From Chrysaora quinquecirrha (taxonomy: Eukaryota > Cnidaria > Scyphozoa > Semaeostomeae > Pelagiidae): a stretch of 64,000 bases of DNA. Made by a program: the position numbers and the translations under genes. Below the pieces are notes generated by a model, which was not told where the DNA came from, ran no database searches, and worked only from the letters and a program-made list of their open reading frames with translations. This document shows, in pieces, positions 21,995-45,438 of the stretch (position 1 is its first letter; the number at the start of each line of letters is the position of its first letter). Where the stretch lies: the NCBI GenBank assembly GCA_014526335.1, contig JACTAT010000119.1, forward strand, positions 273,229 through 337,228, given 5' to 3'.

Positions 21995-24900
21995 ATGGCC
22001 GATGATACATCGAAGCTGAGTCGAAAAGGGAAAATAATTTGCCAAGATGGAGAACTGGATTTTGAAGATCCTGCAGTTGAAGATGGTTTTGCTGATTTGA
22101 AAGCAGCAATTATGACTGGGCGGACAGACATTGTTCGACTTGTTTTATCTGCTGCACAGTCTTGTAAGTCAACAACGATTATATATTAAATTTATAAGTT
22201 TGACTACTAGACTCTCTGATTGACTGAAAATACCTAACCACCCTAATTGCAGAATGCAGATGACTTTTGTCACAAACCAATGAATTCTGAAAGCAAAGAG
22301 GCCGGTAGGTGGTAGATAAGGCAACAAAAAGAGTCGGTTGTGTAAGTTTTCCATGCAGAACAAATTAAAATTGCATGCATGGGTGTGAAACAGAATGGAT
22401 AATCCAAAGTTTAAATATTTTAAAGTTTCTTAATCTTAAATTCAAATTTAAAAGCAGAGAAATATTAAGAAATGTAAATAAGAATCTATTATAGTCTATA
22501 GACATTTTTGTCCACCTTTGCTTTTCCATTTTTCAAGAAAAATAGCTGTTGACTCATTAGAGGGTCACACCTCACTTCTTATTCTTTGAAATTCCTTTCT
22601 CAATACACATTCAAAGAAGAATGCCTTTGGTATTTTCTATTTCTGGCCAGAATGTAACATTACGAAATTTTTATAAGGCAACATAATAAGAAAGTATGTA
22701 AGAATAAAAATTTTCATTGCATTTAAATAATGAGCCTTTCAAAGAATCTTTGTTGCAGTAATTCAAGATTTTCTTCAAGGACATGCCCACATGGACACAC
22801 CTCTTTTTTGGCTATGACCATCCACTGAAAATTCCTAGCTACACCACAGAACGCCATTGTTCTGTGCACCAATGCACCATTGTTCTATTGTTTCTGTGCA
22901 AAAAAGTCTTATCATAATTCAAATCATAATTTCACCCTTGCACCAGCAATTTCTTGGCAATGATGCCGTTGAAACATTGCACACTCTGCAGACTGGGTGT
23001 CACCTGGTGGATTGGGAGGACATGTCTAGGTACCCAACTTTTATTAAGGATCAATTTTATAGTTCATCTAAATTCGATGAGAAAACTAAAGTGTTAGCGA
23101 AAGCATGAAAAAAGTCAAATCGTAATGCTAGCTATAAAAGGACATTTTCCAACATGCTGTAGGATATGATTCTAAAATTTTCCTTGGGCAAGCCCCTAGA
23201 ATACCATTTTTTACTCACTTCCCCCTTCATACCACCCCACCTAACTATCTGGAAGTAGGGACCAGTCCTGCTACCTACTCTACAACCTTCCATGTCTCCA
23301 AATGACAAGTTTTGTTTCTGGACTTTTCCAGATAGAGATGAAGAAGAATCATTAAGTGATGATGAAGATGATGAGACAACAACAAAAGAATCAAAAGATC
23401 AAGAAATATTAGATCTTCTTCAGATGTTGCTGAATTTTAGAGATAATGATGCAGGAACAAGTCTTCACTATGCCACCAAGGTAGATGCTTATATAAGTGT
23501 AAACAAGTTTTCTTTTCTCTATTGTGAGAACAGCGGAAACAATTTTTCCTCTGTTTCTGGCAACTCAAAGACCACTCAAAGACTCTTTTCCCTATTTGAG
23601 ACTTAAGCCTGGTTCTCATATTTCCCAAGCATTTTTAAAGTTGGGAAACTTTACAAATCTAGCGTTTACAATCTATAGGCTAGTTCACATGTTAAGGATC
23701 ATAAATATTGTGATCGCTGAGGCCAATAAGCATTCAAAATTTCGATGAAAAAGAAGACAGCATCCCCCGAATGTTATTATTTTCTTCGTTTGCAAGGCAA
23801 AAGAAACATTTGGAATCCAGGAGGTTGATGTCATAATTTTCAAACAAAGCATCACAAATTTCAAACAGGGGTTGCTTTGATTTGGCCAGTGATAGGGCCA
23901 AGCCTCGGCACATTTCAAACCACAAGAAAGATAAACATATTTTTGTACCTGTTTAAAAAGATTTAGTCAAGGAAGGAGAAAAAAATGTAATCTGTAGACA
24001 GTTTAGGAGTTGGGGAACATTTTGATGTAAAGAAGCTTGCGTTTAATGCAAAATTCACCGAAATTCAGGAAAAAGAAACAATTTTAAATCATGGCTATTC
24101 AAAAAGCTTCACTCCTTGTTAATTATTTATTATACATATAAGGCTTATATATAATTTGGCATTTTTCAAACAACAACAGCAACCATATATCTGTATTGAA
24201 TACATGATGTTCTAGGCAGAAAACAATGCAAATTAGGGTACATAAATCATGATATCAATGCTATTGGGCCTCCTTTGATCTAATCATTTTTGTTATTTTT
24301 CTTAGCTTGACCAAACAGACATAGTAAGATCTCTACTGGCTGCTGGAGCAAATCCGACTCTTAAGAATTGTGAAAATGCTACTGCTTATGATTACTGCAA
24401 AACTGATGCAATGAAAATGCATATGTTGGAGCATTGATGCAAGCTGTTGCACAATCTCAGTGAGTAGAATTTTTAATGTCTTCCCAATAGATCACTTATT
24501 TTTCAACACCAATAATCATTATTTAAAGTTATCCCAAAACCATTTTATGCATTAAACATAGTTTGCCTGACTAACTTAAACACAATTAAAATTTCTTTAA
24601 TTTCCTGTTGTTCAAATGCATATACTAATTACTAGTTCTTGATTCTTTTGAAAAGAAGTTAACCATCAATACCCCTTTTTTCTCTTGCTTTCAAGGAGAT
24701 ACAGAGTGAATCTACTGCTTCAATCTGGGGTAGATGTGAATTCTGGTGATGGTGCAGTAAGTGACAACAAGATCCTTCACTGGGCTGCAAGTTTTGCTGA
24801 TGCTGAAATTGTCAGATTACTTCTTGGTATGATAGGTTGGAATTTTTTTATTTCAAGTCTAGAAATGATTGATTGTTTGTTTATGGGTCATTACAGAAAC

Positions 24901-26059
24901 TTTTCCAAAAATGCGTAAAGAGCTTTTTTGTAGCACTCTCCAGAGTATCAAACATTAGAAAGGAACCAAAAATTGTTTGCCACATACAAAATTTGTTCCT
25001 GATGTGAAACAAGCTGAGCTGATAGTGATATTTGTCTATTTTGAACACCAATTAGTGGACACAATACTGCAAAAAGATCAATAGAATTTTAATGAAAGAG
25101 TCCAAATGAGAAATTGATTTCTTTCAATCTACACAAACTTTTCTGGTTAACATTTTATTATAGAAACAAATTTGAGCATTTGAAATAAACGTTTGACAAG
25201 AGATTCTAAGCTCCACTTGATTAACTTTTTTAAATTTCTGTTGGGGTTATAAAGAACAAATTGAGAGTTTCTTATTTGCATTTTCCAACAGACAGGGCTG
25301 AATTCTATCTTTGAATAAATTCACTGGTTGCCCTATTCCTTGACATCACCTTGTGTGTATTTGCTGTACGCTATTGTATGGTATCCTAGGCCACGTGTAT
25401 TTTGTCCAAGATTCCACAAGTTTGAACAAGCTATCTATTTTTGTGCTTTTATGACATTGTTTTTGTGGCACTTGGTTGAAAATCTCTAAAGGAGCAGGAT
25501 GTCCTAAGCACTCTTTGCCTTTTCCGCACTTGTTGCAACAGAGCAGGGCATCGTTTTCCTAAAGTCTCCCTGCATGTCAAGCAATTCAATTTGGCATTCA
25601 TTCTAATCAGCTTTCGTTTTTAGTAATCATCGTATTTGGACAGTGTTTTTAAAAGCTTATGCTATAGCCTTTGTAACTTGATGTGCGTATACTAAAAAAA
25701 GCGCGCCCAAGAAACTTTGCAGGCAAAGGCCTTGGCCAAACGATCAATTTTTTGTGAAACATTTGAGATTTGCTTGTGAAGAAAAATTTTCGACAATGTT
25801 TGACCAACAGTGTTTGGTCTTTTGCAAGGATCCAACAAACCCGTAACCGGCATTTCTTGCTTGATTTCGAGAGGCAACATAAAGTGAAGGGAGAACTATA
25901 TCTTTTTCATTTGTTTCTCGTAGAATCAAATGCAGATGTTAATGCAATAAATGCTGATGGTGCAACCGCATTGCATGATGCCATAGCGCGTGGGGACGAA
26001 GGAATAGTTCTGGAGCTTCTAAATCATGGTGCAACAATCGACATAAAGCCTTCAAAAGG
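21995..26059 (+). other. Ankyrin-repeat module of the fusion gene (exons 1-5)
   Basis: Exons 1-5 encode a first repeat-like helix pair (ADLKAAIMTGRTDIVRLVLS), an acidic insert (EEESLSDDEDDETTTKES), and then at least four ankyrin-type units with the TSLHYA, ILHWAA and TALHDA tips, each followed by IVR/IVL..LL. Ankyrin repeats bind protein partners. The module ends GATIDIKPSKG and continues in exon 6 with GPMAGKTCYDLAQSKSN, another partial repeat, about 4.6 kb downstream across the nested antisense gene. Confidence 0.85.
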
Positions 26060-29000
26060 GTATGGAATTGCTAAAGGTTCTTTTACCTAATTATACCTTA
26101 CGAGCCTAGAATTCTTATTGCATAGATTGGTTTCTCGCGTCATTCCATTTTACGTTTTTCTGCTTGAGACTTTCTGAAAACAGAATTCGTCTTTGAGGGC
26201 CAGAACACTTCACATCAAATTCTTATAAATTGCTCTTGAAATCACTGAATACCTGAAGAACCTGCAAGTTGTATCCTCAGGCTGATATTCTAGAACGAAT
26301 ACCCTTGTTAATCATTTACCGCTCTCGGAAAGATGGACACCTGAATTACCTGGAGAGTGGTGTCGACGAGATTCAAGCGCACTGCTTGCCGATCGTGAAC
26401 CGAACGCCAGAGCAGAGATAAATATTATAGAGGATGAAAAAGGAAACACAACGTTTTCATATTTCAACGTTTTGAACATTTTAAAAGAACGAACAATCGA
26501 GTAAATAAATTTAGAACCAACAAAGTAAATATAAACAATAAGATATAATTCTAATGGTTTTGGCTCCTTCTTCGCAACCAACTAAAAACACTTCTTTTCT
26601 TCTTTTTTTGAATTTCTGAAACATCTTTTATCAACATTTCAAATTTGCATTCTAGAGCCTTCAACTGTTCAGTAATGTTTTTGTTGGTTTGTTCCTTTTG
26701 TTGGCATATTTCTCCAACATTTTCTAATTCAATTCCCATTCTCATCAATGAATCTTCTTGATCTGTCATTTCTTTCGTCATATTTGCATTAATTTTGAGC
26801 AAATCTTCATTTACTGCAGCCATCTTCATGAGCTCTTCCTTCAAATTTTCATTCTTCATTTCCAGCTCACCGAACTGCATATCTTTCAGTTGAGCAGCCG
26901 TCTTATAATTTTGAATCTCAAACTCAAGATCTTCTATTTTCTTCAACATAGATTCATTTTCTTCCTTGGTTGCTTCAAGCACGTTTGCTTGTTGCTGATA
27001 AATTTGAATCTCAAGTTCGAGCTCTTCAATTTTCCCCGACATAGATTCATTCTTTGCCTTCGTTGTCAGGAGAACTTTTTCCTGCTTCTGATAATTCAGA
27101 AGCTCAAATTCAAGCTCTTCTACGTTTCTTGAGATAGATTCATTTTCTTCTTTGGTTGCTTAAGCTCTTCTTCTTGTTGTGCATACTTCTGAATCTCAAA
27201 TTCGAGCTCCTCTATTTTTCTTGAGATAGATTCTTTTCTTCTTTGGTTGCTTTAAGCTCTTCTTCTTGTTGTGCATACTTCTGAATCTCAAGTTCAAGCT
27301 CCTCTATTTTTCTTGAGATAGATTCTTTTTCTTCTTTAGTTGCTTTAAGCTCTTCTTCTTGTTGTGCATACTTCTGAATCTCAAGCTCGAGCTCCTCTAT
27401 TTTTCTTGAGATAGATTCATTTTCTTCTTTGGTTGCTTGAAGCTCGTTTTCTTGTTGTGCATACTTCTGAATCTCCAGTTCGAGCTCTTCTATCTTTCCT
27501 GACATTGATTCATTCTTTGTCTTTGTTGATTGCAACTCTTCTGCTTGTTTCTGATAATTTTGAATCTCATAGTCGAGCTCTTCCAGTTTTCTCGACATAG
27601 ATTCATTCTCTGCTTTTGCAACTTGAATTTGCGACTCAAAATCAGATTTTTCATTTCTGGTGATGCATAATTCTTTCTGAAGCTGTTCTTTCTCAGCTTC
27701 AAATTTAGCAAGAGCTTGCTCGAGAATCTGATCTTTTTGTAGCAAAGACATCTCCATGTTTGCTATTTCTTCTTCGCTCTTCGTTACCATATCTTTGAAA
27801 TTCTCACATTGTGAAGCGGCTTCTTCAATTTCAGAACAAAGAAGCTGATTTTTTTCATCATTCAGATCTAGTAACCTTTCTTTCTCATTCACTTCAGTGT
27901 TTAGGCCTTCAATCTCTTCTTTGTATCTCGCCTCCTTTTCCTCCCAATCTGAAACATTTCTCTTCAGATTCTCGTTCTCCTGCTTCAGTTTCTCAATCTC
28001 ATTTTCTGCTTCTTGAAAATCATCGATGACTTCTGCCTTTTGCTTTCTAAGCTTTCGAACTTTATGAGTTTCTTTCAGCATCAATTCATCTATGATGACT
28101 TTTTGCTCTTGAAGCAAATACAGCAGTTCTTCTTTTTGGTCTTTGAGACTGGATAACTAAAAAGCAAAACACCACAATTAAATTTCACAGAATCGATTAA
28201 TTAAAACGTTTCTATCTACACTTGCTGACTCTTGTTCAATTTGGTTTTTCCTTTTTTTTTGAAATGTTTCATTGTTGTTTCAAACTGCTTTTTAAAGGAT
28301 GAAAAGGGTATAAAAATCCGTATTTTGGTCAGCAAAAAGGTATAAAAGTTTCTTCGATACTGGAGTTTTCCTAACGATATGCCTATAAAGCTATCATTAA
28401 AGTCAGACATTTCTTTTTAAATCGTTTTTGAGAAAAAATAATTTATATGGGCATGAACAAGAGTATGTCTTTTTTTGGTACTGGAAATCTGTGAAATTCT
28501 GAAAATTCTCGACCTTAATACGCAAACGATGAAAAACTACGAGTTTTGCATTTCTAAATTGGTTTCGATTTTGTGTTGAATTTACCATCGCAAAAGCAAG
28601 TTCATTTCGACTTTACCGTCGAAAATCGAGTTTTTCATTCAACTTCGCAAAACAGAGTTTGTTTCGAATTAACCGTCACAAAAGCGAATTCTTTTCGATT
28701 TTGATTTTGATTTAATCTTTGAAAAAAGCGAAACGAAAAAACCTCTGCAAAGTGTATCGAGCCTTAATTTTTTCATTCTGTCTGTTGAAATAAAGGGTTA
28801 GACTAATAAAGGGTTAGGGGGACTTTAGAGGGACCTGCCAACCCCGTCGCTCTTTTTTTTGTGCACAATCGAACTCGAATTCATACCTTAACTTGAATGC
28901 AAATCAACAACCCACATAGTTCTTGCGCTATTTGCGCTATCAATCGAACAACGTCTGGGTTTCTAGCCTCTAAGCATTATCCGAATTAATTTCTATAAGT

Positions 29001-32000
29001 CATACCTTATTTTTATATTCCTTTTCATTATTAATCTTCTCTGCTTTGTACTCTTTCACTTTTCTAAACAAAAAATGTGCATTTGATTAATATATAACCA
29101 TTATAACGCATGATTATAGTGGTGTAGTGGTGTTGTGTAGTGTGATGTTTACATTAGTAGTATCTGTGTTTGTAGAGTAGTAATGTATTCGAGATTCAAT
29201 CAATCATTGTAGACTATGCTCATACAACTACAAGGTACTACTCACTTCATTAGGAGTTTTTTCATCTCTTCTGAAGCTTGCAAGTTTGCTTGCGTTTCCA
29301 ACAACTGGTCTTTTAACTCCTCCATCACGGCCTTTTGGCTTTCATCTGTGCATTGAATACCAACACACGAACTCATCTCAAGTAGTCGATTCAACTAGAT
29401 TCAACTACCTCTCAATAGCTAATAAACTTTTACTTCGGAAAATAACAATTTCTATCAGGACTACTCCGTAAAAATTGTGTATCTAATCAAGGATCGGGAT
29501 TTGATTTATTTTTCTTTGCTTTCATTTTGATTGTGACGTCAGTTTAATTTTTGATTGTTGCGTCATTGGTCCGTCCATCGTTGTTTTGATTGGCTCCCGC
29601 GATTTCTCCCGCCGTAAACGTCAAATTGATTTGTTTAATTTACACAAAGGCCTAAACAACATGTCTTCTTTGCTGGCCTGAAAAAGACTAAATTCTTCTC
29701 CATTGCATATTCGAACTTGGTACCCTAGTTGCCTTCAAGTATTGTGTCATAATTTAGGCGTATTTTCTGCTTCTTATTCCTGTATACTTTAAGTGTTTTG
29801 ATTACAGCAGTACAGCTTCGGTTGTTTCAAACATCCAAAAAATGACCAAAAAATGTCCGATTTTTTAATTGTTGTAAAATACCGAACCGTCATGTAACCG
29901 CCCAGGTGTGTTCACGAACCGTTCTTTTTCTACTGTTCAATTCTAAAATAGATCATTTTCGCTTCTTCATATTTCAAGCCCTGGTGAAACATCGCTTGTG
30001 TTATCAGGTGACACCCAACCGTTTAACCAAGTTCTTTTTGTTTCTTATGTTGGTTGCTGTTTGAGCACGGGTTGGCTAAACGCAGAGACCATTTCAGCCA
30101 ACATATTCGTATCAGATCAAAAAGGTGGTCAGTCTGAGCCCAAAGCAAATACTCAGTGTAAAGATTATCAATAATAGAATACTCACATCACGGCCTTTGT
30201 AAATTGGAATTTGCTCGTATGGTTAGAATGGAAATTAATACTTAAAGGAGAATTCTTAGTCCAGGATTCCCTTTGATTATTCGCTCTAAAATAACATGGT
30301 GATTACGCTTGTTGAAAGGCCTATTTGTGGTAGTTTCCATGCTGTTTCTGTGTCGATAAGTTTAAGAAGTTTCTTGAGCACCAGAGTGCCTTATAGCTAA
30401 TACGCATTCGTGTAGCCTACAAAAGTAGGTTGGTTGGGTTTTGTAATCCTTATCGAATGTTGTTTTTTCTGCCACATTTTATTCCCCAAAACCCTTCACT
30501 TTCCACCAGCATTTACTGTATTTTTGAAAGGAACATTTTGAACATTATTCATGTTTTTTCCCAATGGTTTCACGCTTCCCTAGATAACGAGCTATCTATA
30601 ACTGTTGTTTTTCAATTTTTTAGGCCAATGGCAGGGAAGACCTGTTATGACCTTGCCCAGTCGAAAAGCAACATTAAAAATCTCATAGAGATCCATCTTA
30701 GAAAAACAGCAAACCATGTGGATGCAGACGCGTTAATCACCAATGATCAATATGAAACATCATCAAATGCAAGCTCAATTCCCTCTCTTCCAAATATTTC
30801 ACCACTTTTGCCTACTTTGAATGATTCTACACCCCCTAAAGTCAACGGAGAACATTCATACGAAAATAGCAATCAAGATACAAGTCAGGAGGAAGGCAGT
30901 GAGAGTACACCTCACGACAGCAGTAATCTTGCTGTTTCTCCAGCCAACCAAAGCTTTCAGCCAATTCTCCTTCCACCAAAATCGCCAATGAAATTGTTCT
31001 TTCCAACATTGGTTCAGTTAGATGCTGGAGTTTCTCAACTTTGGCCTCCACCACAAAAGATATCACAATACCAAGGAACCTTCTATGTCCCTCCCGGCGA
31101 CTTGAAATTCACGTTGATGTCTTCAAAGAATACGGCTCAGGGTAAGCAACATTTTATCTCACATCATCCGCATTTAGACCTTGTTAATGCGTCGAAGTTA
31201 TGCAACAGCGAATTTAATTCAGATGTGAACCTTTATCTTCGCACTTACTCCGCTATAGTTGCGGAATAAAATAGACACTTTGAAATTTTCCTTAGCTCGG
31301 TTTTAATTGCTGGAATTGTGTCATACCAAGTTTAACTCATTGATTTCTCTATGTTGCACCAGAAAGGAATAAATAATACATATTAATCACATTGTATAAT
31401 TATGACTTGGTTCTGAAGAAATCCTATGTTTTATTATGTTGATATGTTTCATATAAGAGATATATGAGTCTTTGTCACGTCCACATTTAAGTAAAGTCTT
31501 CCTGATTTTCTCTTGATAAAATGTGCAAGAAACGTTTTAATAATGAACGCCGTACAAAAAGAACGCGAGAGGAATTAACATTGATTAAGACAAAATCGCA
31601 CTTATCAATGTATCGCTTTAATTTCATGTAATAAGGTATATTCATTCTCTCATTCTCAAGTTTGCATCCTCCTTTCTTGGTTTTCCAAGAATTGCTGGCA
31701 ACGTTTTCGCAGTGACTTCTTAGCTTACAGCCATACGTTGCTGTTGAATTGCTGCATTGCATTTGCTACACAATTTTGTATTTACTACGATTTAGTTCCA
31801 TGGAAACACCGGTTCCCGTTAGATAACCGTAGTGGTCATTTCCAGGAATGGTTACCTCTTGGACATACTTGAGCTGTTGTAGATACAGTTGAAATCCGCT
31901 ATCTCGACTGCCCGCTATCTCGAACGATTTTCCATTTCCCCCCGTTTTGGTATAAGGGTTTGTATAGAAAAATCATCCGCTATCTCGAACCCCGTTATCT

Positions 32001-35000
32001 CGAACATTCGCTGTCTCGAACCATTTTCGACTTCCCATGGAGGAAAACCTGCTCTTTATCTCGAAAGTTGCCAAATTTTCTGCTGAACTGGATAAAGAAA
32101 CCAGCTGAAAATATGGATAAGTTCACCTAGCGGAGCGTGAATGGCACCGGCTAAATGATATGCTGCCCATGTATACAATAGATGAAGCTGTTCTCTTTCG
32201 AGATGTGCTGCATCGCCATTATCTCAATTTCACCAATAGTAGGGATGAAAGCAGATGACCTTTGACTCGTATGTAAAAACACCAGACTTGTTTGATGAAA
32301 TTTGGGAACAGTAACGCTGCATGTTAATAGGGGTTCCTTTTCTGACTTAAAAACTATAATTTTTTATATTTATATGGGGCATCCGTTATTTAGAACATTC
32401 GCTATCTCGAACAAATTCCAGTTTCCCTTGAAAGTTCGAGATAGCGGATGTCAACTGTACATCTCCGTACCAAGGTGTAGCATTGGTACGGAGATGATGA
32501 AGGCCCTAAGAAGCTCTCGATGCACCGAATCTGAATATATGGCTGCACGAGTCAATATTTACTCCCCAGGGAATATAGAAAAAATGAATAACGGTGTTAT
32601 ATAAAAGCAATGCCTTTGCCTTTTACTTTTAATAAGATTTGTTTGTTTTTTCGTTACAGATTGCCTGTTGGAATTAATAGACATGATTGAAGTTATGAAG
32701 CCAAAATTCAAAACTACTGGATTTGATTTACAAACGGATTTTCTGTCTTCTTGTAAGTTCATATCATTCTACTCTTACTTTCTCATGAAGGTTTTAAATT
32801 TTCGATCATCCCAAGGCTCTATCCATCTTGGAAATATACTCTTTTTAATAAGCATCTTTACTCAGATAAGATCGAGAAGCTATTGTTTGATAACAGAAAC
32901 ACAGAAAATTTTCACGCGAAAGCTCTCTTTTACTATCAGATTTAGATTTCCTTAGGACTGGAATTGGAATTCCGAATTCCCCAGGACTGGATTTTCAATA
33001 ATAGTCTAAAAGTTCTGCGTATATTATTATCATGATTGATCATTACTAACTCGTAAGGTATAGATACAAAGAAGTATGCATATCAAAGCCTTTCAATTGT
33101 GTTCTAACTAGTCACAAACTGTTTAATAGAATACTCAATTTATAAGATAGTATCACTATTCACCGGTGATTTTTCATGTTTTTTTATTAGATTCCACGAT
33201 TTCAAGTTCTACTAAAGGCAGCGTGGAATGCTTCTTCGATCAAACGGCGTTTCATCACACTGATGAATACAGGATGCAAATTTCGACTAGAAAGGTGAGA
33301 AAATATGAAAAACTAGCACATTTTGGTTAGTAACAGATTATAAAACGGCAACTTCACTATTTTCTTTATGAGATTGCACGTTTTTTTATAAGGAACCTTT
33401 GGTCTGAGTTGAGGCTAGAGTTCTTTAATTTTTCAACAAAATATGGCTGAAAATTCCTTATACTGTTCTTTGTCTGTCGAGATATGTTTGAATACTTATT
33501 TGTAGAGCAAATTCATATAAAATTGCTTCATTTTCTAACTGTAAATATCTTTTGGAGAAAAATAATGGAAAATATATTGTTATTCTGTTTTTTATTTGTA
33601 CAAACCGTCTTGTTCTTGAAAAAAGTGACTGTTGGTTTTTCATCCGAGCCTAGACAGTTCCTTAAAGTTCCTTAATTTTTGGAAATTTTCAGACTCGAGT
33701 TCGCTGTAAAGGTGTTCCTTAAGAAAAACGTGTATATCTTGCTTTTTGTCTTCTAGGTGAAGATTGTAGCTAGCAGTACCAGATCAATGTTCTATGCAAT
33801 AAATACATTTCTTCAGTGTTTGAGGATATATCAAGGAAAGAGTGTACCATTGTTACAAGTGAGTAGAAGTAATTGCTGTAAAAAGTGTTTGTACAGGCTT
33901 AAGGCACTAGCCAAACGATCAAACATTATTGGTCAAATATTTTAGGTTTTCTTTGCAATTGACTGTTTTAGTCACAAAACATTGTTCAACAAGCAGAATT
34001 TATTTGGCAATGTTTTTCGAAAGCTTCAAAAGCATTTTCTGTTCTTTACAAGCAAAAACGTTTGACGAGCAATGCTTTGTGATGTGACCAAACGGTAAAA
34101 CATTTTGCTTGACATGCAAAAGTTTATATGTTTGACAAACAATGTTTGATCGTTTTGCCAGAGCTTAAGTGATTTTATTCAATGTTATTCGGTTTTTGTA
34201 GCAAGAAAGATGATTAATAAAAGCATATTGGGAAGTTGTGTTTGTATGATCGAACTTTAATAAGTTTCATCAAGCCGGGTCTCGGGCAAACAGCTCTTCG
34301 CGTGAAGAGAACGGTTTCGTCGCTACAAATACGTTGTTCTGCTCATTTGTTCGTCTCGGGGAGTAATGATAAGTAGAAATGACTTCTGTTTTTCGTCATG
34401 AAAAAATTTTGGGTGAATGATTTTGCCTAGCGAGGATCCGGCTTTAGATCAAGCAAAAACCCCTGAGCCGATTGGGCGGTCAGAAAACCTCGAGGAGCAA
34501 GAAAAGCGACTAGTTTAATAAGGAGGAAAGTCCTTCCATTTGAAGCTTGTACGAAATAGATATTTAGGTATACACAGCCATAACAAAATTGAATGACTAG
34601 ATCATTGGCATACATTCTCCGGACTGCTCATTACGTTTTCTTTTCTATTTGTTGTTTGTGTCTTTGAGTAAAAATACTATTATTATTGTTGATTTTATAC
34701 ATTCAAAATGTTGTTTTAGATATCAGATTGGCCTGATATGAGTGTCAGAGGCGTCCAGGTGGACTTTCATCAAGGGGACCTGCCTAAATTGGTAAGTAGT
34801 GAGTGTAACAAATGACTTTTCTTCGTTTTAGTCATTGCATCTTTTCATAGTCTTGTTTTTTTTTCGTTCCCAATCAGAATCTACATATTATCGTACTGCG
34901 CCCTGATACTCGTGTACTTTTCATCATCAGCACTGAAAATTTCAACTCGAAATTTTCTTTTTCTGCATTGCTTCTATTTTGCATATAGAACAGTTATAAC

Positions 35001-38000
35001 GTTCCTTTTTCAGGAAAATTTTCTCCAATTTATCGATGATCTTTCAGGATTTAAAGTTAATCAGGTATGTGTTCGCTTTTCGCTATTTGCTATGATAATT
35101 CACAATTGATAGTCGACAGAGACATACAAATGTTCTCAAAGGGGTTGCTTTCTGTGTTTAGCAAGGTTTGATGTGACCACACCTCCTGGTTCCTTTTGCC
35201 TCTCACCTGTAATTATGCAAACTGGCTAATCTCTTCTTGGGAATCACGAGGGTACGTGGAGGTACGTGACTTGTAGATGGACGTGGATGTGCCGCCGATA
35301 TTTGTAGACGCAGTACGCAGACACTATATTATGATTATTGAGTATTTGGGATTAAATTTCGTCATTGAACACGTCGCCCATTTTCCAAACTTGATCGGAC
35401 CGATTTTTGCATGCACATGAGAGCATTTTCATGCAATTATGTGGATGAATGAGTTTGATATACAAATTCAATTTAATATTCATTTTTGGTTATATTTTCT
35501 TTGTTTAGATTCATTTACCTGCAGAAATTTTCCTTCCACATGATCAGAATAAGTACATCTACTACACAAGATGGTGAGAATGTGATGTTATATTCTGCTT
35601 ATGTTATCCTTCGGCCTCGTTGCAAGCTTTTGCAGCGACTTGATTTCATATTGCATTGGGGTGGTATGTGAGCTAACCGATACGAAACGCTTCATTTTTC
35701 TCACTCCGTTTTATAGGTGATATGATATGAAACGAACTCTGTTCCGATAATTTGTTGACATTCTTTGCGAATGGAGATTAACGATTGACATTTTCTCTGT
35801 CCGATGTGAAAATCAAGACGCAAAGATAGCTATCGGGTATAGACCGGTATAATAAATATAGGGTGATTGGACTCGATCCTTTCTCTTCACGTTGAGAAAA
35901 TGAACAATGATATTTTACATTAAATTGATAACCTTGTTAGATAAGTGAATTAATAATTTATTGGTCATGAATGACCAAAACCAGGATAGATTTGTCAAAA
36001 AATGGCATACCACAGTAAGTCGAACCTGGACTGCATGACCAGAGCCAACGACGTTTCCACTGAGCTAGCCCAAGTCATACAGCCCAAAGCTCTCCTCCCG
36101 TTTTGACTTTTTGGTGTTGCGGCTATGATGAGCCTTCTTCAGCACCATACATATGTATACATATTTGTCATGAATGGCGAATTGTTAAATAATTGAATTA
36201 TTAATAATTTCTTTTCCCAGTGACCTGTTGCGCATTCACAAGTTCTGCAAAGAAAGATACATTGACGTTATTCCAGTTTTAAGGTAAGACTCAAGAAGCA
36301 TTTTTTTGCTATGTATGTCTGAATTATAGCGTAATATCAAACGTCAGATTTCACCAGTTATCACCATAATGATTTTATGGCAACTCGTGCATTTGGAACA
36401 CACACAATACGGTTACTGGTATTCGAGAACCAAAGAGTGCTCAAGCCTGTCACTACAAGAACTTCCCATCTGAAAAACATGCCTTAAGAACTTTGATTGT
36501 ACTTAACAAAGAAGTATCTGAGATAGACACTGTGCTGATCTGTTTTATTTCGTAAACAGTTTATCACAGTGTTGCTATAGTTGAATAAACCTACGGCGTT
36601 GCTTTATTCTTCAGATGCAAAATTATTCTTGAAGCTTAGTGCTTTTAAATATAAAAATATCATATTCTTTATAATATCATCTAGCTTGCCTTGCTAAATC
36701 CATGCTTAGTATGCGGACCTACTATACGATACGATAATAACTGTTAACTTATGTCAGCATGTCAACTACTAGTCACAGAAATTATAGGATACAGTTGATC
36801 GAGGTCGTGAGAGCAATCAGGTCGACTGCGACTGACGGGAATCAGTTGTCAGCTAATCGCAGTTAAGTAGAAATGCCCAACTTTCTGGAACTGTTCGTCG
36901 ACCATTTGCCGTTTAAAAGTAGCTAGCTGCCCTGAGATTCAGTTGCGTAAGCACTGTAGACTCCATTAGTTCAAAAACTAAGGGCCCTCGATGAAAAGGG
37001 GCCCCCGAGATTTTTTCGTATTGTATTCTTTTTTGCCATACTATGCTGGAATGCTTCCTAAGGGCATCCCATAAACAGTCATCAATCAAGGACACGTAAC
37101 TCAGATTTCTAAATGCATGCTTTCAAGAACTTTCCCACCACTCCAAGCCACCTCCCTCCCCCCGTGGAGCTCACCGCTCTTCTTTAGCCGTCCCTGCATA
37201 AGGGCCCCATGTACTAAATTCCTACGGACCCTGAGCATTTCCGTTACGCCACTGCTGAGATTCCAGGAAAATTTTGATCAGATATAAGTTTCGTTTTCTT
37301 AAACGTTGCTCTTATGAAAAGCGTTTTTCTAATTTTTTTATTTGGGTTCTTAACTAACCATGTATTTTTACACAGGTCCTCAGATATACTGGGAGAATTT
37401 AGCACTCTTTCATATGCAAGCATAAAAGCGGATATTCTGCCTCTGTTTCCTTCAATAAGGTACGTTAGCATGATGATGTTTTTGGACCACTGTATTTTGA
37501 GCCATATCACATTGGGCAACACACTGGACCATACATTGAGAATGGTTGGTGAAATGATTTAATGACTTTATAAAGCCCCAATCTGGTAATAATTTGCAAT
37601 ATTTTAGCAACATTCCTACCCTCTGCAAATACGATTCTTTATCGTGTCCTATTGATTTGTAATCTATGGCAGCCCCGCTTTTATATTTTCTAACATCAAA
37701 GATATGATAGATATTCGTTTTAAGAGTCTCAGAATATTTTTCCTCGATTTATCGTAGATATCTAAACGTGAGTTTAAGTGACGAGGAAGACCAGCCAAAA
37801 ACATACCGGAATATGGTGAGTGAATTTATCGCTCATAATTTGATACTTGTCACTGACATAACTGCTGTTTTGAATTCGGTTCGGGTAACATTTTTTCCTT
37901 CAAAACGTCTATGATCCTTCTTGCATCCAACACATCAAAGACCATTTTATCTATTGCGGATTTGTTTAGTCAGACTTATTACAAGAGTCACAGTTTTCGC

Positions 38001-41000
38001 TTGTTGAATCTAGACCAAAAAAGCGTTACACTAAGGTCCCAGTTACACCATTCCGGCATGTCCGTCGCGCCATGAACTTTGTATCGGATAGGGCTTTCAG
38101 TTACACTATCACGACCCAATCCGGTATAAGACGCTCCGCAAATCGTCTTGAAAATCATGGCGCTCTGGAGGTGATATGAAAATCAAGACGCGACACGGCG
38201 GCACAATGTAATCAGACCAATCCGATACATGACGCTCTGAAACCTTGTTTTCTTATTGTTTCACAAAAGAAATGCGAAGCAAATCTGCGAAGGAGCTGTC
38301 GTGGCGTCTCAGTGTAACTGCAGTGATCGCCACAGAAATCGTGGCGCTGCGCTCGTGTAACTGCTGGGCGAAATCTTATGACGGCACGAAAATCAAAACG
38401 CAACGGTATCATGCCGGCATTGTGTAACTGGGACCTAAAACTGTGCAGCTACATCTGCACAACATCAACAACTTAAGGTGGTGGCATAATTAGGACTCGT
38501 GTGGTAAGTCTAGTATTTTCTTCAGTCTTGTTTTACCTCTTCTGCAATTTTTCGTAGCTCAGTGGAATAACAGACAACGATTTAGTGAGAAGAATAGAAG
38601 AACTGCACGAATTTTGTGATAGCAATGGACTCACTTTACTATTAGACTCGGAAATAATCCTGCAGCAACCTGTGAAGCTTCTAGACATAAATCACAATTT
38701 AGTTTGCCTTAATCTTTCAGAGGTAAGCATATTTATTTTGTCCTTGACACTTTTTTCAATATTGATTTCGATGTGTACACGCTAGCGAATCAACTCGCAC
38801 TACTGTGGTGGGTACGCATTACTGTGGTGGGTTATTGTGCTTAATGTGGTGGTGTTTTTTGCGTGTGGATAAGCACTACTGTGGTGGGTTATTATTCTTA
38901 AATATTTGCGTACTGTGGTGGATATGCACTACCGTCGTGGGTTATTATGATTGATGCGGTGGTACTTTTTGCGTACTGTGATGGATTTTGTACGCAAGAA
39001 ATGCCAGCACACTACGCAAAAAATACCACCACAGTACGCAAAAATATCACCACATCAAGCATAATAGTCCATCACAGTAGTGCTTATTGACCACAGTACG
39101 TAGAATGTACCGCCACATTAAGCAAATTAACCCACCACAGTAGTGCCTATTGATTAGCTAGCGTGGTTTGCTCATCCAAGTAATGAACTTTGTTTGAAAG
39201 TTTTCTTATAAGAATGTGTCATATGAATTTTGAAATTTATCAAAATTCTTTTTCAGGAATTAAAGAAGGAAGCGACATGCGAAAATCTTTATGACTTAGG
39301 GTGAGCTTATCTTACTTCAACTGCTTTCAGTTTAATGAATGATTTGTTATATTAAATTGACGACCGTACTGTACTTATTCGATTTCCTCATTTTAAAATG
39401 TCTTTTATGTTTTAGAATTCCTCATGTTGAATCACCAATTTATAGAGATATAGACACGTAAGCAAAACATTGCTTTTAGAGTTTTAACATTTACGTACCT
39501 GGTTTTTCTTTCGTGATATTTCACCGACAAGTATCTCATCTTGATCCTGACCTTTCAACTTACCGTGACCTTTAACTTGACCCAGGCTTGCCCTTTGCAC
39601 CTTCTCAGGTTCAATGATTGACAGGATGTGCACGTGAGATGACCTTCCGTTCGACGTCTTATGGGGCGTATTTTTCAGTTACCTTTTTTCACTAAATGCC
39701 ACCTCTATTTGGTAAACTTCAAAGTGAATTTTCAGTTACAATCTTCTGAAAACGACATGTTTGTCAGGTCCTTGAAACCTTCTGCCCTTGATTCTTGAAG
39801 ATTTCTAAGACATAGTAAAGAATCTCGTCCTAAATGGCAGCCACATCCGCAAATACAAGATTTAGTCCGAATTTGCTCCTTCAGCCTACTGTTTTAGGCG
39901 GTCTTGTTTTTTAGTAAATTTGATAGCAATTTTTGGGCCAAGTTTGCCGTTTCCAGAATTTGGAGGGCCTGCCTGAGTTCAATTTGTCTATAGTCATATT
40001 CTCGATCATTTTTGCATGGATTATCTGTCTTGGGGCACAAGCTGGTATCACATCAGCTGTATAACTCTTGTAAGCCTGACCTGCATTAACAATAAAGATT
40101 GGTTGTTTGCTTGCTTGCCCAAAAAATGCTTTCAAATGTGTTAAAACTAGAAAATATCAAATAAAAAGAACAACGGCAAAAAGGGGTGTCCCAAGGTCCA
40201 AACAATTTTACGGTTAAATTTCATGAGGACATGTTTGAAGCGTAAATTTGATGATCGATTTCGTTACAGAGATTACACAGATTAATTGAGTAATTTTTCA
40301 TCTGTAGGATTCTAAATGACGCACGTGCAGGGCTGAAAAGCTTTGAAAGCAGCTGTCGAAAAGCAGTTAAATGTGGTGCTCTAGGGATGATTATTCGATA
40401 TGAAGCAAAACCTTGCCTCAATTCATTCATTATTGATATAGCGTCATTAGCAGTTGGTTCAGCGATGGCCTGGAAGTCGTCCCCAGCTGTGGTAAGTATA
40501 CATAGCACTTGGATTCGCCAAAATAACTTGACAGGTCTTTGAGTTGTAAAAACTTCAGTAGTGTTAAGGAAAGCGGAGACTTCTTTTTGAGACATTCATC
40601 TTAATATAAACACCTAAAACAGGCGAGAAATGTGCCATTTTGTCCCAAAAAAATGTCCCGAGTGTCTCTCAAATATGTCCCAAGATGTTACCACTTTTCT
40701 TCGTAATACCCGAATAACTTAATTAATTGATACAAGGCTCCACGATTAGGATAAAAAGTGAAAAGATCTTTGAACCTTCTGTTAACAACATGGGTTAATT
40801 TCAAAGGTCTGATCTCTAGTGATTGCGCTGTATCCTTTGAGCTGATTGGTATTCAAAACAAGAGAATTGTTTGGGTCTATTTCTGAGGTTTCGACAAGTA
40901 AAATAGACCATGTTGCACTATTGTTTTCAGCGTGTCGCCTGGCAAATGTCGCTCAGAATTTGTAACACTTTTCAACATGTTCTAACATTTTGTGCGACAT

Positions 41001-44000
41001 CTGACATGTCACACAAATATATTCTAGTTACTGGTAGCCACTTTGTCGACAGACAGTGCAATTCAACACGTATGTTCTTGCCTGCCAAAACATGTTTCTG
41101 TCCATGATTTTGTTCGCCCACATAAATATAGGAAAAATTTCAAAACATTCGTCAATTTCCGATTATGGGGGTAGTTCCCTATGAAAAGGAACTAAGATTG
41201 AAGTTCTTAGAGAAAAAATAAGATAAGCAACTATGTAATTATAAAGAATTAATGAAACAGGCATTTTAACTTCCTTTGTTGAATACATATAACGCGAAGA
41301 AGAAAATTGGTGATGGACCAGAATGTAAAAGCCAGCTTAGAGTCAGCATTTCGTTCATCAGAAAAGTCGAAAAGTTTAGCTATCGCTTCATTTGTATGTG
41401 CAAGCAACATCATGGACACAAATTCAACAAAGTCGCGCAACAATGCTGTCTAGACCAGGCCTTTTACTCTGAAGTGTGTCGGTCGAAAAAATCATTTACT
41501 ATGTTCAGTCATTAATAATTTTCTAGCTGCAATTGTCCCCCCTGCATTTACGGATAAGATTGGCAGTGTGAGAAATTCGTTCGACACAAGACTAATTGAG
41601 ATCCTGTGGCCAGGTTGCTAGAGAGTTGGTAGAGTATTGGTATACAAAGCCAGACGTCATAGGGTCGAGAGAGACCTAACCTGATCAAATCAATATCTCG
41701 CATTATCTCTGATAATTTGTGAAATTATTTTTCTGATAATTTGATCTAATATGTACATTAATGATCTTCTCTATAGATTGCTGATGAGGACATGCTCGCT
41801 GGCATCTTAAACAGACATATATACCAAGATGAAAACGACAAAGTTGGTAATTTATTACTGAATTTGGGGAGTGTTGAACAAATCGAGCGTGTTGGAAAAC
41901 GAAATGTAGAAATGAATAGGCGAGATATTGAACCAACAGAAAATGACGTGGCCCATAAAGCTTGTTTCCTGAGAACATTGCTGAGTTCAGTTGATGATCT
42001 GAATAACCATTCAATCTCACTAGAGAGTCTTAAGGTTTGTTTTTGTTTTGAAGAATTCAATAAATCATTTACCCTGGTATTCAGTGGCGTAACGCCTCGG
42101 GGGTACTTGACCCTCAAATGTACGGGGTTGCCCTGAGTCTTTACAACTCAACCCACCTTTAAGGTATTGTTTTACACATTCAGCCACCTAGTTTTAAGAT
42201 TGAAGTATGCATTTGTGTACCAAATGTTGAGGAAATTTGATTCTATACCCATTTTTAAGGTATTTTAGGCAGAAATCGGACCCAGTTGTAAGGAATTGTT
42301 GAAGAAAACCCACCCATATGAGGGACACATATCTGTCAGCATACATCAGGGAGTACTTCCCGGGCCTAACGCATAGTTTAGGCTCTCTTTGTCAAAGAAC
42401 TAGGGGCCCCGATAAATTTTTCATATCGTGTGCTTTTTGGCCATACTTTGCTAAAAGGTGTTAGAAGGCCATTCTATAAGCAGTCAATAACAGGGGAGCA
42501 CGGGACACGTAATGTCAATTTTCAAGGTTCTAAAGGACATGTTTTCAAAAATTTGATAACCATTTTGATCTTTGACATTCATAATCATAAGCAATTTTCT
42601 TTAAGGGACTTCTCTCATGTTTAAGACTAACCTTTAGCTGACTTCATGTACATCTGTAGTAAAATCCTGAGATAATGAAAGATAATGGAGATAGTGAATT
42701 TTCCTACAATGTTTGACCCTTAGCTATGGCTAGGGTTGCTGATCCAAGAAAGAAATCTAAAAGCAGTGAATTCCATCAGCAGGTTCCACTAAAGTGCAGC
42801 ACAATGTACCATCAAACCACAATACTGTGTTTAGGAATTTAGTTCCAAAATCATTAGACAGTGATTGGTAACCTACAATCATGGACAAAATAAGTTTAGA
42901 CAAATGCACAATGCCCATATTCAATGTTGATTGCTTTTCACGGATTTTATTACGCATCGCCCGCATGATGGATCGGTTACTTCTGATGCGAATGGAACAA
43001 AGTATCCAATACTGAACTGAGGGAAGGTGGACTAAGTGAGGCAATAAGCGATCTGGACATACATTTTCAGTATTGTCTCGATAATTTTGTCCATGATTGC
43101 AGAATAGCTTAGCTTCAAGTTTAGCTAATTTTTTTTCTTCGAAAACAGATCATCACAGTGTCGCTAAAGCAGTTGGAATCCCAAATAGGAAAATGTAAAA
43201 TGAAATGTGATGCACGAGAAATGGTTATCAATGAAGTCAAATTCCTCATCAAGATACTTTTATTTTTATCGAGGTAAAAAATCCTGTTTCAAGTATCGTG
43301 TGATTGCCCAATAATGCGCTGAACACTTGAAGTGCTTTACAGAGTTTTCACCTGCTAGAGTGCTACTAGGATTGTCACGTTCAGCTGCATACTTGAATAA
43401 ACTGACGACATTGCTTAAGCCGAATCTCCAGTCGGCGACGCGCGAAGAGAATGGTCTCGTCGCTACGCATAAGCAGCAGTACATTGTCCCTTCTACATTT
43501 GTCGCAAAAGCTTTTCGCGTGAAGGTTTTTGCCTAGTGGACGTGACTGTATACCTTGCTTCAAACGCTGGACCTGCTGTGTCTGCGAGCTTGTGTTTTTG
43601 GCCACTTCTAGCTTCGAAATGCCGGTTTTTGTGCACCACAAATACATTTCATACAGAGGTCGGCGGAAAAAATTCAATAAAAACACGCAACAGGCTTGGC
43701 TTAATTGTTTCAGCTTTGAAGCAGTGGACTATGTGTCGCCCCATACTAGAAAATACAAAACATCCACGTTTGAAACAAGCCAAACAAATTTGACTGATGC
43801 AAAAAAACGTACAAATGTAGAGAGGTGTTTGAAGCAAACAAAGCATACCGTATACGTGGATTTGGATTGAACCAATCGTGATGCAAGTCGAACGGCCGTT
43901 GAGCGGTTTTTCAAAAGCCAAAAAATTTTACGCAGCAAGCTTTTGATAATTTTTGATATATATAATTATATTTTATAAATATATATTAAATATAATGTTT

Positions 44001-45438
44001 TGATAATTTATTAGTTTTCTATTTCAATTATGCAAAAAACAAGTACTGTTTTCGTTTTTAGAGTTGGGGTAACATTACAAAAGTCTAGAAAGGCAAATAA
44101 AGAAATTCATCTGGGAGATTTAACTGAAATTCAGCGGAGTGATTTATCAAACAAGTATGTATGATTATTATTTTATGCTATTTTGGTATTTTATGGTTTG
44201 GATGCCAAGTGTGGCATAATAAAAAGGTAAGTCAAGCAAGAATGCATTTTCACACACTTCTAAGCAATTGATTGAAATATTCTTTAAATTCAATCAAACT
44301 TGCTTCTGAAAGCAAAGAAAGTCGCTGTCTAAGAATAGGCCTATCCATGAGTTATTTTCAACCTTAAGACGATGCTAGTAAATCGCAGGATGTGCAGAAA
44401 TCTACATTGCTTGTATTTTGAACTAAATGACGGCACAAAACTAGCTTAGACATCGCCAAGTGCATTGCACGTTTTTATAGTTTATCCCCACGTCAAATCA
44501 AACTGAGGGTTTGACTGCATTTCGAAAGAAATTATATAACGTATGTCTTAACTCCAATTTACCACCACTCAGGTTCATAACAGCCTGTTTGAACAATCAT
44601 GCAACTTTGAGGTATGCAGAATGGTATCAGCATATTATGCATCAAATACACCTAGCATCACGGGCAGCAATCTTTTCGAGGTTGTGTGGGACTAATGAGG
44701 TGGATGCTGCTTCCCAATTACTTTGCATCAATTCGAGCCCTAGTAATAGCGCGAATTGAGTCTGACCTTGAGAAATGGAGATGGTTGTTGACAATGAATA
44801 GTTACTGTTCAATGGAGCTGACTTGGAACCTTTCGACTGACCAACTTTTCTCAGTTGCCGGCTGCCCTTTCCTAGCCTATACTGGGCAAAAGTAGTACCC
44901 GTTTCTTTATTAACAGGAGGATTGTACTAACAGGAGGACTTTACTAACAGGAGGACTACTCACCTACTCGCCTCTACTTGTTGTCCAGCTCTTTGGCTGA
45001 AGATTATCACGCAGTCATGAATGACAACTTATGAGCCAACCCGTTGGACCATTTACGAGAAGTGTATTGCGTGAAAGCTGGTTGTTTTTTATGAAAGAAT
45101 GGATAATGATTATCAACTAATTTCTGTGCTTACTTCATTTTATTTCATGGATGAGAAAATAACATCTTTGTTTCTGCCCCAGCTTTTGTTATTTAGGCCG
45201 ATGATATTAAAGTTACCTATAAAACAAACTTTTTCCCGATGACTTTTCTGAATCACAAATCTGTCCTTCTAGATTGATGGGCCTAACTGAGCTATACGAA
45301 AATTTCTGCCGATTTCATTACAAGGAAACTTCACATGGGTTTAAATCTGTTGAACTAATGAGAAAGCTTCTTACAAAACTTTATCCAGAAAGGGAACCGT
45401 CATTTTTTAATTCTATAGCACGCGCATTCAATGTGTAA
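21995..45438 (+). CDS. Ankyrin-repeat protein fused to a GH20 hexosaminidase-like domain
   Basis: A 23-exon gene for about 1008 residues. Exons: 21995-22163, 23332-23480, 24306-24459, 24696-24826, 25924-26059, 30624-31141, 32660-32752, 33191-33294, 33757-33858, 34720-34791, 35014-35064, 35509-35573, 36221-36283, 37376-37459, 37758-37815, 38558-38722, 39257-39300, 39416-39457, 40308-40491, 41777-42034, 43149-43273, 44062-44154, 45273-45438. Every junction is GT-AG and phases agree throughout, except that exon 3 lacks one base near 24431 (see findings). Residues about 1-270 are ankyrin repeats (VRSLLAAGANPTLKN, ILHWAASFADAEIVRLLL, ADVNAINADGATALHDAIAR). Residues about 270-360 are a Ser/Asn/Pro-rich linker. 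About 370-520 resembles the GH20 accessory domain (STRKVKIVASSTRSMFYAIN). About 520-800 resembles the GH20 TIM barrel (SVRGVQVDF, then RYIDVIPVL, then YLNVSLSDEED). A helical C-terminal part follows. There is no signal peptide, so it should be cytosolic or nuclear, like hexosaminidase D. Whether it hydrolyses GlcNAc/GalNAc is unproven. Confidence 0.85.
25731..25832. mobile_element. Palindromic MITE, CAAACATTGTTTG family, copy 4 (short)
   Basis: AAGGCCTTGGCCAAACGATC on the left; ACAATGTTTGACCAACAGTG then TTTGGTCTTTTGC on the right. It is about 100 bp, an internally deleted copy in intron 4 of the ankyrin-GH20 gene, close to the exon 5 acceptor at 25923. Confidence 0.6.
26551..29376 (-). CDS. 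Coiled-coil protein with 31-residue repeats, nested antisense gene
   Basis: Three exons on the minus strand, 29246-29376, 29006-29063 and 26551-28156, give 598 residues if two single bases are restored. The ATG at 29376 is preceded by an in-frame TAG. Phases 2 and 0 join correctly. Nearly the whole protein is Glu/Lys/Gln-rich coiled coil (EIEKLKQENENLKRNV). The middle is about eight copies of a 31-residue unit (SMSGKIEELELEIQKYAQQ then ENELQATKEE), 93 bp in DNA. The C-terminus changes to a basic, aromatic tail (KKKKRSVFSWLRRRSQNH). It is a structural or scaffold-type protein of unknown role; I do not recognise a family. The gene lies entirely inside intron 5 (26060-30623) of the ankyrin-GH20 gene. 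Frame breaks lie near 27235 and 27160, each one T short of the neighbouring repeat copies. Confidence 0.75.
26930..27610 (-). repeat. 93-bp coding tandem repeats of the coiled-coil gene
   Basis: The phrase CTTGAGATAGATTC recurs at 93 bp intervals (for example near 27225, 27318 and 27411). The central three or four copies are almost identical at the DNA level, showing recent expansion; outer copies have diverged. Confidence 0.85.
28540..28740. repeat. Degenerate ~35-bp repeat in coiled-coil gene intron 2
   Basis: Variants of 'TTCGATTTTACCGTCGCAAAAGCGAGTT' recur about five times. Non-coding, between exons at 28156 and 29006. Confidence 0.5.
29377..30623. promoter_or_regulatory. Probable 5' region of the nested gene inside the host intron
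   Basis: About 1.2 kb between the nested gene's start codon and host exon 6. It should contain the promoter of the antisense gene. I see no clear TATA box or repeat. The placement is inferred from gene order only. Confidence 0.35.
31886..32457. mobile_element. pogo/Tigger-like non-autonomous DNA transposon
   Basis: It starts CAGTTGAAATCCGCTATCTC and ends AGATAGCGGATGTCAACTG, flanked by TA on both sides (31884-31885 and 32458-32459). Subterminal CGCTATCTCGAAC repeats occur several times at each end. The CAGTTGA ends with 'ctatctcgaa' subterminal repeats are characteristic of pogo/Tigger elements. There is no transposase frame. It lies in intron 6 of the ankyrin-GH20 gene. Confidence 0.85.
33898..34168. 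mobile_element. Palindromic MITE, CAAACATTGTTTG family, copy 5
   Basis: Full-length copy: AAGGCACTAGCCAAACGATC on the left and AACAATGTTTGATCGTTTTG then CCAGAGCTTA on the right, with interior CAAACA/TGTTTG palindromes. It is about 270 bp, similar to copy 1, in intron 9. Confidence 0.75.
34262..34450. mobile_element. MITE of the 'TTCGTCGCTAC / GATCCGGC' family, copy 1
   Basis: AGCTCTTCGCGTGAAGAGAA then CGGTTTCGTCGCTACAAATA and ATTTTGCCTAGCGAGGATCC GGCTT. Related sequences occur at 43380-43545 (CTCGTCGCTACGCATAAGCA, GCGTGAAGGTTTTTGCCTAG) and 57745-57932 (TTTCGCCCAGTGGAGATCCG). Confidence 0.5.
36003..36098 (-). mobile_element. tRNA-like SINE fragment
   Basis: On the minus strand TGGGCTAGCTCAGTGGAAAC resembles a tRNA A-box region and CAGTCCAGGTTCGACTTACT a B-box (GGTTCGA). 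Spacing is close to that of a tRNA, but the arms do not fold into a complete cloverleaf, so this is a SINE head or tRNA relic rather than a functional tRNA. Located in intron 12 of the ankyrin-GH20 gene. Confidence 0.5.
37971..38505. mobile_element. MITE with TAGACTTATTACACGAGTC-type ends, carrying an inserted MITE
   Basis: The left end CAGACTTATTACAAGAGTCA and right end AGGACTCGTGTGGTAAGTCT are inverted repeats. The same ends bound a short copy at 46117-46271. The interior is split by a second element at 38033-38438. It lies in intron 15 of the ankyrin-GH20 gene. Confidence 0.7.
38033..38438. mobile_element. Inserted MITE with GGTCCCAGTTACAC ends
   Basis: The left end AAGGTCCCAGTTACACCATT then CCGGCATG is mirrored on the right by CATGCCGGCATTGTGTAACT then GGGACCTAA. 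The flanking TAA on both sides could be the target duplication. The interior repeats phrases such as AATCAAGACGC and TGGCGCT in both orientations. No transposase. Confidence 0.8.
38784..39168. mobile_element. Foldback element built of CCACCACAGTAGTG units
   Basis: The two ends are long inverted repeats: GCTAGCGAATCAACTCGCAC then TACTGTGGTGGGT on the left and ACCCACCACAGTAGTGCCTA then TTGATTAGCTAGC on the right. Each arm repeats 'ACTGTGGTGG' and 'TTTTTGCGTACTGTG' several times. The whole 385 bp could fold into one long hairpin. In intron 16 of the ankyrin-GH20 gene. Confidence 0.85.
41605..41700 (+). mobile_element. tRNA-like SINE fragment
   Basis: GCTAGAGAGTTGGTAGAGTA resembles an A-box half and CATAGGGTCGAGAGAGACCT a B-box. 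It is not a complete tRNA. Located in intron 19 just before exon 20. Confidence 0.35.
42881..43104. mobile_element. Tc1/mariner-like short element
   Basis: Inverted ends AATCATGGACAAAATAAGTT and CTCGATAATTTTGTCCATGA are typical in style of Tc1/mariner termini. About 220 bp with no transposase. In intron 20, some 45 bp from the exon 21 acceptor. Confidence 0.55.
43380..43545. mobile_element. MITE of the 'TTCGTCGCTAC' family, copy 2
   Basis: GGCGACGCGCGAAGAGAATG then GTCTCGTCGCTACGCATAAG and TTTCGCGTGAAGGTTTTTGC CTAGTGG. Ends are partly inverted. Related to 34262-34450 and 57745-57932. In intron 21 of the ankyrin-GH20 gene. Confidence 0.45.

Follow-up and report, generated by a model that had tools for sequence, protein, structure and literature searches.

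Ankyrin repeats joined to a predicted glycoside hydrolase family 20 barrel without its catalytic glutamate in a gene of the jellyfish Chrysaora quinquecirrha

A 64,000-nucleotide stretch of the Chrysaora quinquecirrha genome (contig JACTAT010000119.1, positions 273,229 to 337,228; here the window) carries on its plus strand a gene that joins ankyrin repeats to sequence related to glycoside hydrolase family 20 (GH20). Rebuilt from the DNA, this gene comprises 23 exons within 21995..45438 that splice to 3,026 nt, and 22 of its 22 introns start with GT and end with AG. The reading frame runs from the ATG at 21995 to the TAA at 45436-45438, uninterrupted save for one break in exon 3, and residues are numbered with a single X at this break, giving 1,008 in total. 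A preliminary description of this DNA had reported phase-compatible junctions across 23 exons bar one defect in exon 3, and the rebuilt exons agree with it. As judged from alignment and modelling, the product would start with an ankyrin block, which a variable linker would connect to GH20 domain 2; a (beta/alpha)8 barrel that has no catalytic Glu would come next, and helices would form the C-terminus.

The ankyrin block begins in exon 1 (21995..22163), which holds the start codon, the N-terminus and the first ankyrin-like helices, aligned with two of the relatives described below (P0003 and P0004). Exon 2 (23332..23480) encodes an acidic insert before an ankyrin repeat begins, and ankyrin repeats continue through exon 3 (24306..24459), exon 4 (24696..24826, containing LHWAASF) and exon 5 (25924..26059). 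Exon 6 (30624..31141) brings the last ankyrin helix, a poorly conserved linker and, from about 31039 (LWPPPQ, residue 386), the start of GH20 domain 2, which extends through exons 7 (32660..32752) and 8 (33191..33294) to its final helix and strand in exon 9 (33757..33858). Pfam recognises the ankyrin repeats PF12796 above the curated cut-off both before (1.4e-07) and after (9.5e-15) the frame break, PF00023 likewise exceeds its cut-off on both sides, and GH20 domain 2 (PF02838) is found at 1e-11, its score of 46.1 bits exceeding the 26.1 required. The GH20 catalytic-domain model PF00728 stays below its cut-off in a 340-residue piece (E 0.06) and is unlisted for the 861-residue part after the break. 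By curated models alone, the product is thus an ankyrin protein with a GH20 accessory domain and an unrecognised barrel. The highest 19-residue mean hydropathy within the first 60 residues is 0.90; by this measure the N-terminus is not strongly hydrophobic, and the protein is probably cytosolic, as the preliminary description had proposed. Intron 5 houses a second, coiled-coil gene, nested antisense at 26551-28156 on the minus strand, that is built of 93-base repeats, one of them of 92 bases; its frame is broken by single-base run-length differences, which hints at base-level assembly errors.

The architecture is not confined to the window. A first protein search, whose query was the segment 230-640 of the 861-residue part, returned six matches: P0001 (73% identical to the query), P0002 from the jellyfish Rhopilema esculentum (LOC135690827; 54%), P0003 (50%), P0004 (53% over 47% of the query) and two bacterial-type GH20 enzymes, P0005 and P0006 (3.6e-5 and 5.4e-4). 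In each of the first four, both ankyrin repeats and PF02838 exceed the cut-off. P0003 is almost identical to P0002 but is missing two pieces that match exons 7 and 13 of the window gene, which suggests shared intron positions, and P0004 starts in the ankyrin block and can be aligned as far as exon 11, departing from the alignment where that exon ends. Searching with the GH20 part alone recovered only P0001-P0004 and a fragment, P0007; a full-length profile was needed to reach other phyla. This profile search, which scored the 7,995 candidates with the most words in common with the query, gave 1,243 matches, and among the best 120, which were listed, at least eight proteins combine ankyrin repeats with GH20 domain 2. 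Beyond P0001-P0004, where five listed matches were scanned with Pfam, they are P0009 from the nemertean Tubulanus polymorphus (LOC141906956; 25% identity over 93%), the 590-residue P0013, P0116 from the red alga Rhodosorus marinus and P0030 from the copepod Lepeophtheirus salmonis, whose PF02838 score lies slightly below the threshold (25.4 against 26.1 bits). P0116 is the sole aligned family member in which PF00728 also passes its cut-off (24.7 against 22.3 bits). The remaining listed matches have other ankyrin architectures according to precomputed domains, P0008 alone among them having been scanned again. Over the N-terminal ankyrin stretch, identity to the window protein is 43% in P0009, 44% in P0013, 34% in P0030 and 27% in P0116, and the GH20 part is 20-28% identical between phyla. 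Six of the 123 proteins compared, namely P0001-P0004, P0009 and P0030, contain QAVAQS, and the same six contain LHWAASF. The best 120 of the 1,243 matches, drawn from those 7,995 word-sharing candidates, include no vertebrate or fly member. The profile search that the preliminary description had proposed therefore shows the architecture to recur in other animals and in a red alga, and searches of the open-access literature, judged by titles and the abstracts displayed, yielded no description of an ankyrin-GH20 protein.

What the curated model leaves unrecognised is a GH20 barrel by profile and by the fold predicted for a relative. Eight prokaryotic GH20 regions were taken for comparison (one, L083, lacks domain 2 as annotated), four of which were aligned with seven family rows: the window protein, P0001, P0002, P0009, P0013, P0030 and P0116. 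Left out of this alignment were P0003 as a near-copy, P0004 because it ends before the catalytic strand, and P0007 as a fragment. The GH20 part of the window protein, P0001 and P0002 matches the four prokaryotic enzymes with a profile probability of 99.1 over 391 columns. The same three proteins match a profile built from the nemertean P0009, the copepod P0030 and the algal P0116 at probability 100 over 569 columns, and that profile in turn matches the prokaryotic GH20s at probability 100 over 470 columns. Twelve controls (two reversed profiles and ten column shuffles) stayed at or below 0.2, and at the level of profiles the GH20 match is beyond chance. With the algal GH20 part as a tblastn query, 34 plasmid records were found, the best, from Halomontanus and annotated as a family 20 glycosylhydrolase, being 31.7% identical over 92%. 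The structure model is that of P0001, the 73% relative, rather than of the window's own protein; it was predicted from eight sequences after a four-sequence prediction with a mean predicted local distance difference test score (pLDDT) of 40.5 had proved too weak for a structure search. In this model, domain 2 is followed by a (beta/alpha)8 barrel of GH20 fold and by C-terminal helices, so that the TIM barrel for which the preliminary description had advised a structure search is predicted, in a relative. Streptococcus pneumoniae GH20C ranks 48th in the fold search, and GH84 O-GlcNAcases are present among the matches. A further set of 43 bacterial GH20s, taken from 80 loci plus P0005 and pre-filtered for a GGDE/GCDE-type motif, was used for fold comparison only and is excluded from all counts of the catalytic pair. 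With domain 2 preceding a (beta/alpha)8 barrel, as predicted for P0001, the protein is a member of GH20 by fold.

The alignment with the prokaryotic enzymes assigns the exons to barrel elements and largely upholds the landmarks that had been picked out by eye. Exon 10 (34720..34791) encodes strand 1 with Arg529 and Asp534, and ISDWPDMSVRGVQVDF had been identified correctly as the barrel start. Helix 1 lies in exon 11 (35014..35064), strand 2 in exon 12 (35509..35573), where the following loop is shorter than in the prokaryotic enzymes, and helix 2 and strand 3 in exon 13 (36221..36283), strand 3 being the RYIDVIPVL landmark as proposed. Exon 14 (37376..37459) covers the region downstream of strand 3, and exon 15 (37758..37815) strand 4. 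The landmark YLNVSLSDEED is indeed this strand, but the Asp-Glu pair pointed out in it is one residue off register. Helix 4 to strand 6 fall in exon 16 (38558..38722), further parts of the barrel in exons 17 (39257..39300) and 18 (39416..39457), and the final barrel helix and strand in exon 19 (40308..40491). Exons 20 (41777..42034), 21 (43149..43273) and 22 (44062..44154) make up the C-terminal helical region, and exon 23 (45273..45438) adds C-terminal helices and the stop codon.

The active site is where the family departs from GH20 enzymes. The roles of the catalytic Asp-Glu pair are set out in one study (PMC11308363). The pair is intact in 4/4 prokaryotic rows, whereas the catalytic Glu occurs in 0/7 family rows and the motif of active enzymes, H/N-x-G-x-Asp-Glu with its catalytic Glu, was not found in these seven. 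At the Asp position the window protein has S638, P0001 Ser, P0002 Asp, P0009 Arg, P0013 Asn, P0030 Lys and P0116 Asp; at the Glu position these are D639, Asn, Asp, Leu, Tyr, Leu and Arg, respectively. The His that follows strand 3, also present in 4/4 prokaryotic rows, is found in none of the six family rows that have a residue there, the window protein carrying Ile607. In the algal P0116 the Asp of the pair is retained, as are a single pocket Trp, a late His and a longer loop after strand 2, but Arg replaces the Glu. Exon 15 keeps only 6/19 residues relative to P0002, a fraction undercut solely by exon 7 (6/31). Few exons are as well conserved as exon 16, although it belongs to a barrel without catalytic residues; 47/55 of its residues are identical to P0001 and 45/55 to P0002. 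The former catalytic strand is thus loosely kept and the neighbouring exon tightly kept between these animals. By eye, nothing in the nemertean or copepod protein clearly corresponds to the exon 16 sequence.

Among known systems, the closest are the two-domain bacterial and archaeal GH20 beta-N-acetylhexosaminidases and lacto-N-biosidases (PDB 8hvc, 3gh4 and 9fyn; loci L081, L082 and L084), which share domain 2, the barrel and a helical C-terminus in colinear order over most of their length. The window family differs from them by an added ankyrin block and linker, by the missing catalytic Glu (7/7) and His (6/6) and by the variable loss of pocket aromatics. The lysosomal HEXA and HEXB (GH20 subfamily 2) match less well in sequence than many bacterial enzymes do (1.2e-9 against 1.9e-17); they are secreted, active enzymes that are not known to carry ankyrin repeats. 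GH84 O-GlcNAcases (bacterial BT_4395 and NagJ) superpose more loosely than GH20, have different catalytic residues and likewise are not known to carry ankyrin repeats. The uncharacterised proteins of Rhopilema, Tubulanus, Lepeophtheirus and Rhodosorus have the same domain order and form one clade with the window protein, the algal linker being far longer than the window's. The preliminary description had called the protein hexosaminidase D-like, which finds no support here. Hexosaminidase D (HexD), reported to be nucleocytoplasmic, belongs to GH20 subfamily 1, and the solved member of this subfamily, Trichuris suis HEX-2 (8QK1), is described in the same study as having a three-helix bundle after its TIM barrel and a working Asp-Glu pair (PMC11308363). 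A GH20-fold barrel followed by helices is shared with this enzyme, but in the window protein and its relatives PF02838 precedes the barrel, which is not the HexD-type layout as there described, and the catalytic pair is gone. When the GH20 parts of the nemertean, copepod and alga were combined into a profile, a PDB search with it gave 77 matches, of which the 60 listed are named as hexosaminidases, N-acetylglucosaminidases (including human HEXA and HEXB chains) and O-GlcNAcases; 8QK1 is not among these 60 listed matches, HexD sequences themselves not having been compared, and its absence from the 50 rows listed of each of two fold searches carries no weight. Kinship with HexD is unlikely.

These results make it likely that the gene product, soluble and some 1,008 residues long, belongs to a family of ankyrin-linked pseudo-hexosaminidases, with members in jellyfish, a nemertean, a crustacean and a red alga, and acts as a non-cutting scaffold binding a partner protein. 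That the aligned members have lost their catalytic residues argues for the pseudoenzyme that had been one of the options in the preliminary description, and hexosaminidase activity is presumably absent. In such a scaffold, the ankyrin block and the barrel would provide two binding surfaces joined by a free linker, and the remodelled barrel would bind a partner protein instead of cutting sugar; in the window protein, P0001 and P0002 the interface would probably lie around helix 4 to strand 6, in exon 16. Several points weigh against this scaffold. The case for it consists entirely of residue loss and a conservation pattern, and exon 15 is not poorly conserved relative to P0001, with 14/19 residues kept. 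The P0001 model is of moderate confidence, with pLDDT below 50 in 335/982 residues, and the first Foldseek row has a moderate template modelling (TM) score of 0.34 by query and 0.49 by target. The other phyla are known from one word-limited database search, and the retention of R529 and D534 in 7/7 family rows could mean residual sugar contact.

The last of these points leads to the main rival in mechanism, a pseudoenzyme whose barrel still binds GlcNAc or GalNAc without cutting it; it might, for instance, read O-GlcNAc in the cytosol while the ankyrin block picks the target. Besides R529 and D534, this reading can draw on the nemertean and copepod proteins, which keep two of four pocket Trp positions, on the late His kept in the nemertean and, together with one Trp, in the alga, and on the GH84 O-GlcNAcases among the fold matches. 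However, all four Trp positions and the pocket Tyr are lost in the window protein, P0001 and P0002, and the pocket varies between lineages, which does not suggest a single conserved ligand. We therefore regard a sugar-reading role as unlikely.

It is a good deal less probable that this genome holds a broken copy and that the frame break marks a dead gene. There is one break per 3,026 nt, outside any long single-base run. However, all introns keep their GT-AG ends and 22/23 exons are open, and identity to P0001, which drops to 29% in the linker, is 64% in the C-terminus and reaches 73-77% in the ankyrin block, domain 2 and barrel. In addition, the gene inside intron 5 has run-length slips between its 93-base repeats, which fit base-level assembly errors. 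At the break itself, within 24420-24428, 4/4 relatives aligned there stay in frame, and since they read through this site, intact copies of the gene exist. More improbable still is a working hexosaminidase with a moved acid, in which D639-E640, the pair named in the preliminary description, or D639 alone would be catalytic. An Asp-Glu pair does adjoin the expected place in the window protein, but alignment with the four prokaryotic enzymes places S638/D639 at the catalytic positions, residues 639-640 correspond to Asn-Leu in P0001 and Asp-Leu in P0002, for which reason a one-residue shift was rejected, and the pocket His, Trp and Tyr are lost as well. That two adjacent genes were wrongly joined is scarcely credible, for although a 4,564-base intron carrying another gene separates exons 5 and 6, ankyrin repeats lead into GH20 domain 2 within a single protein in eight database proteins (P0001-P0004, P0009, P0013, P0030 and P0116, several of them gene predictions), including P0004, a 568-residue frame on a 1,808-base contig that most likely derives from spliced RNA because it covers a stretch with ten introns in the window gene, and the rebuilt gene and this shared layout thus support the earlier assignment of ankyrin and GH20-like exons to one gene.

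The distribution of relatives in worm, crustacean and red alga suggests an old family of ankyrin-linked pseudoenzymes. In a tree of 14 GH20 parts, including seven of the prokaryotic regions (L087 excluded) and leaving out P0013, a branch supported at 96/98, and recovered in 94% of bootstrap trees, separates the six ankyrin-linked parts from the rest, though branches are long, seven rows have unlike letter composition and few sequences were sampled. Viewed with the prokaryotes as reference, the alga branches first (other five 100/99), followed by a split of nemertean and copepod (94/89) from the window protein, P0001 and P0002, among which the window protein falls outside P0001 plus P0002 (97/95) although P0001 is nearest by identity. 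This order follows the species and fits a single old fusion with vertical descent; transfer to or from the red alga may have occurred instead. Intra and colleagues argued for two acquisitions of GH20 by eukaryotes, giving two clades (PMC2492878). Another eukaryotic GH20 tree dropped sequences shorter than 300 or longer than 750 residues (PMC11308363), a ceiling that would omit proteins as long as that of the window. It is possible, and we put this forward tentatively, that a third eukaryotic lineage exists, in which a prokaryotic-type two-domain GH20 and an ankyrin block were joined before red algae and animals split. Catalysis would have been lost at or soon after the join, and the protein would have persisted as a binding module in the cytosol, perhaps one that recognises GlcNAc-bearing proteins, while disappearing from many lineages.

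Around the ankyrin-GH20 gene, an open reading frame with an amino-acid transporter domain (PF01490, 8.1e-53) lies upstream at 17888-19027 on the plus strand, and one with a partial trypsin-like protease domain (PF00089, 7.1e-16) lies downstream at 49871-50356 on the minus strand. Intron 16 contains many GTGGTGG-type copies and their complements at 38787-39160, an inverted repeat by eye. The window ends (3-1028 on the minus strand and 62132-63089) are long low-complexity simple repeats in which open reading frames have little meaning.

In the cytosol of animal cells, few proteins are known that process or recognise GlcNAc. If the reading of the protein as an ankyrin-linked pseudo-hexosaminidase is true, it would be a natural cytosolic pseudo-glycosidase and a system for asking what a glycosidase barrel does after catalysis is lost. 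The family would then also represent a further eukaryotic branch of GH20 beyond the two clades set out in the published account (PMC2492878).
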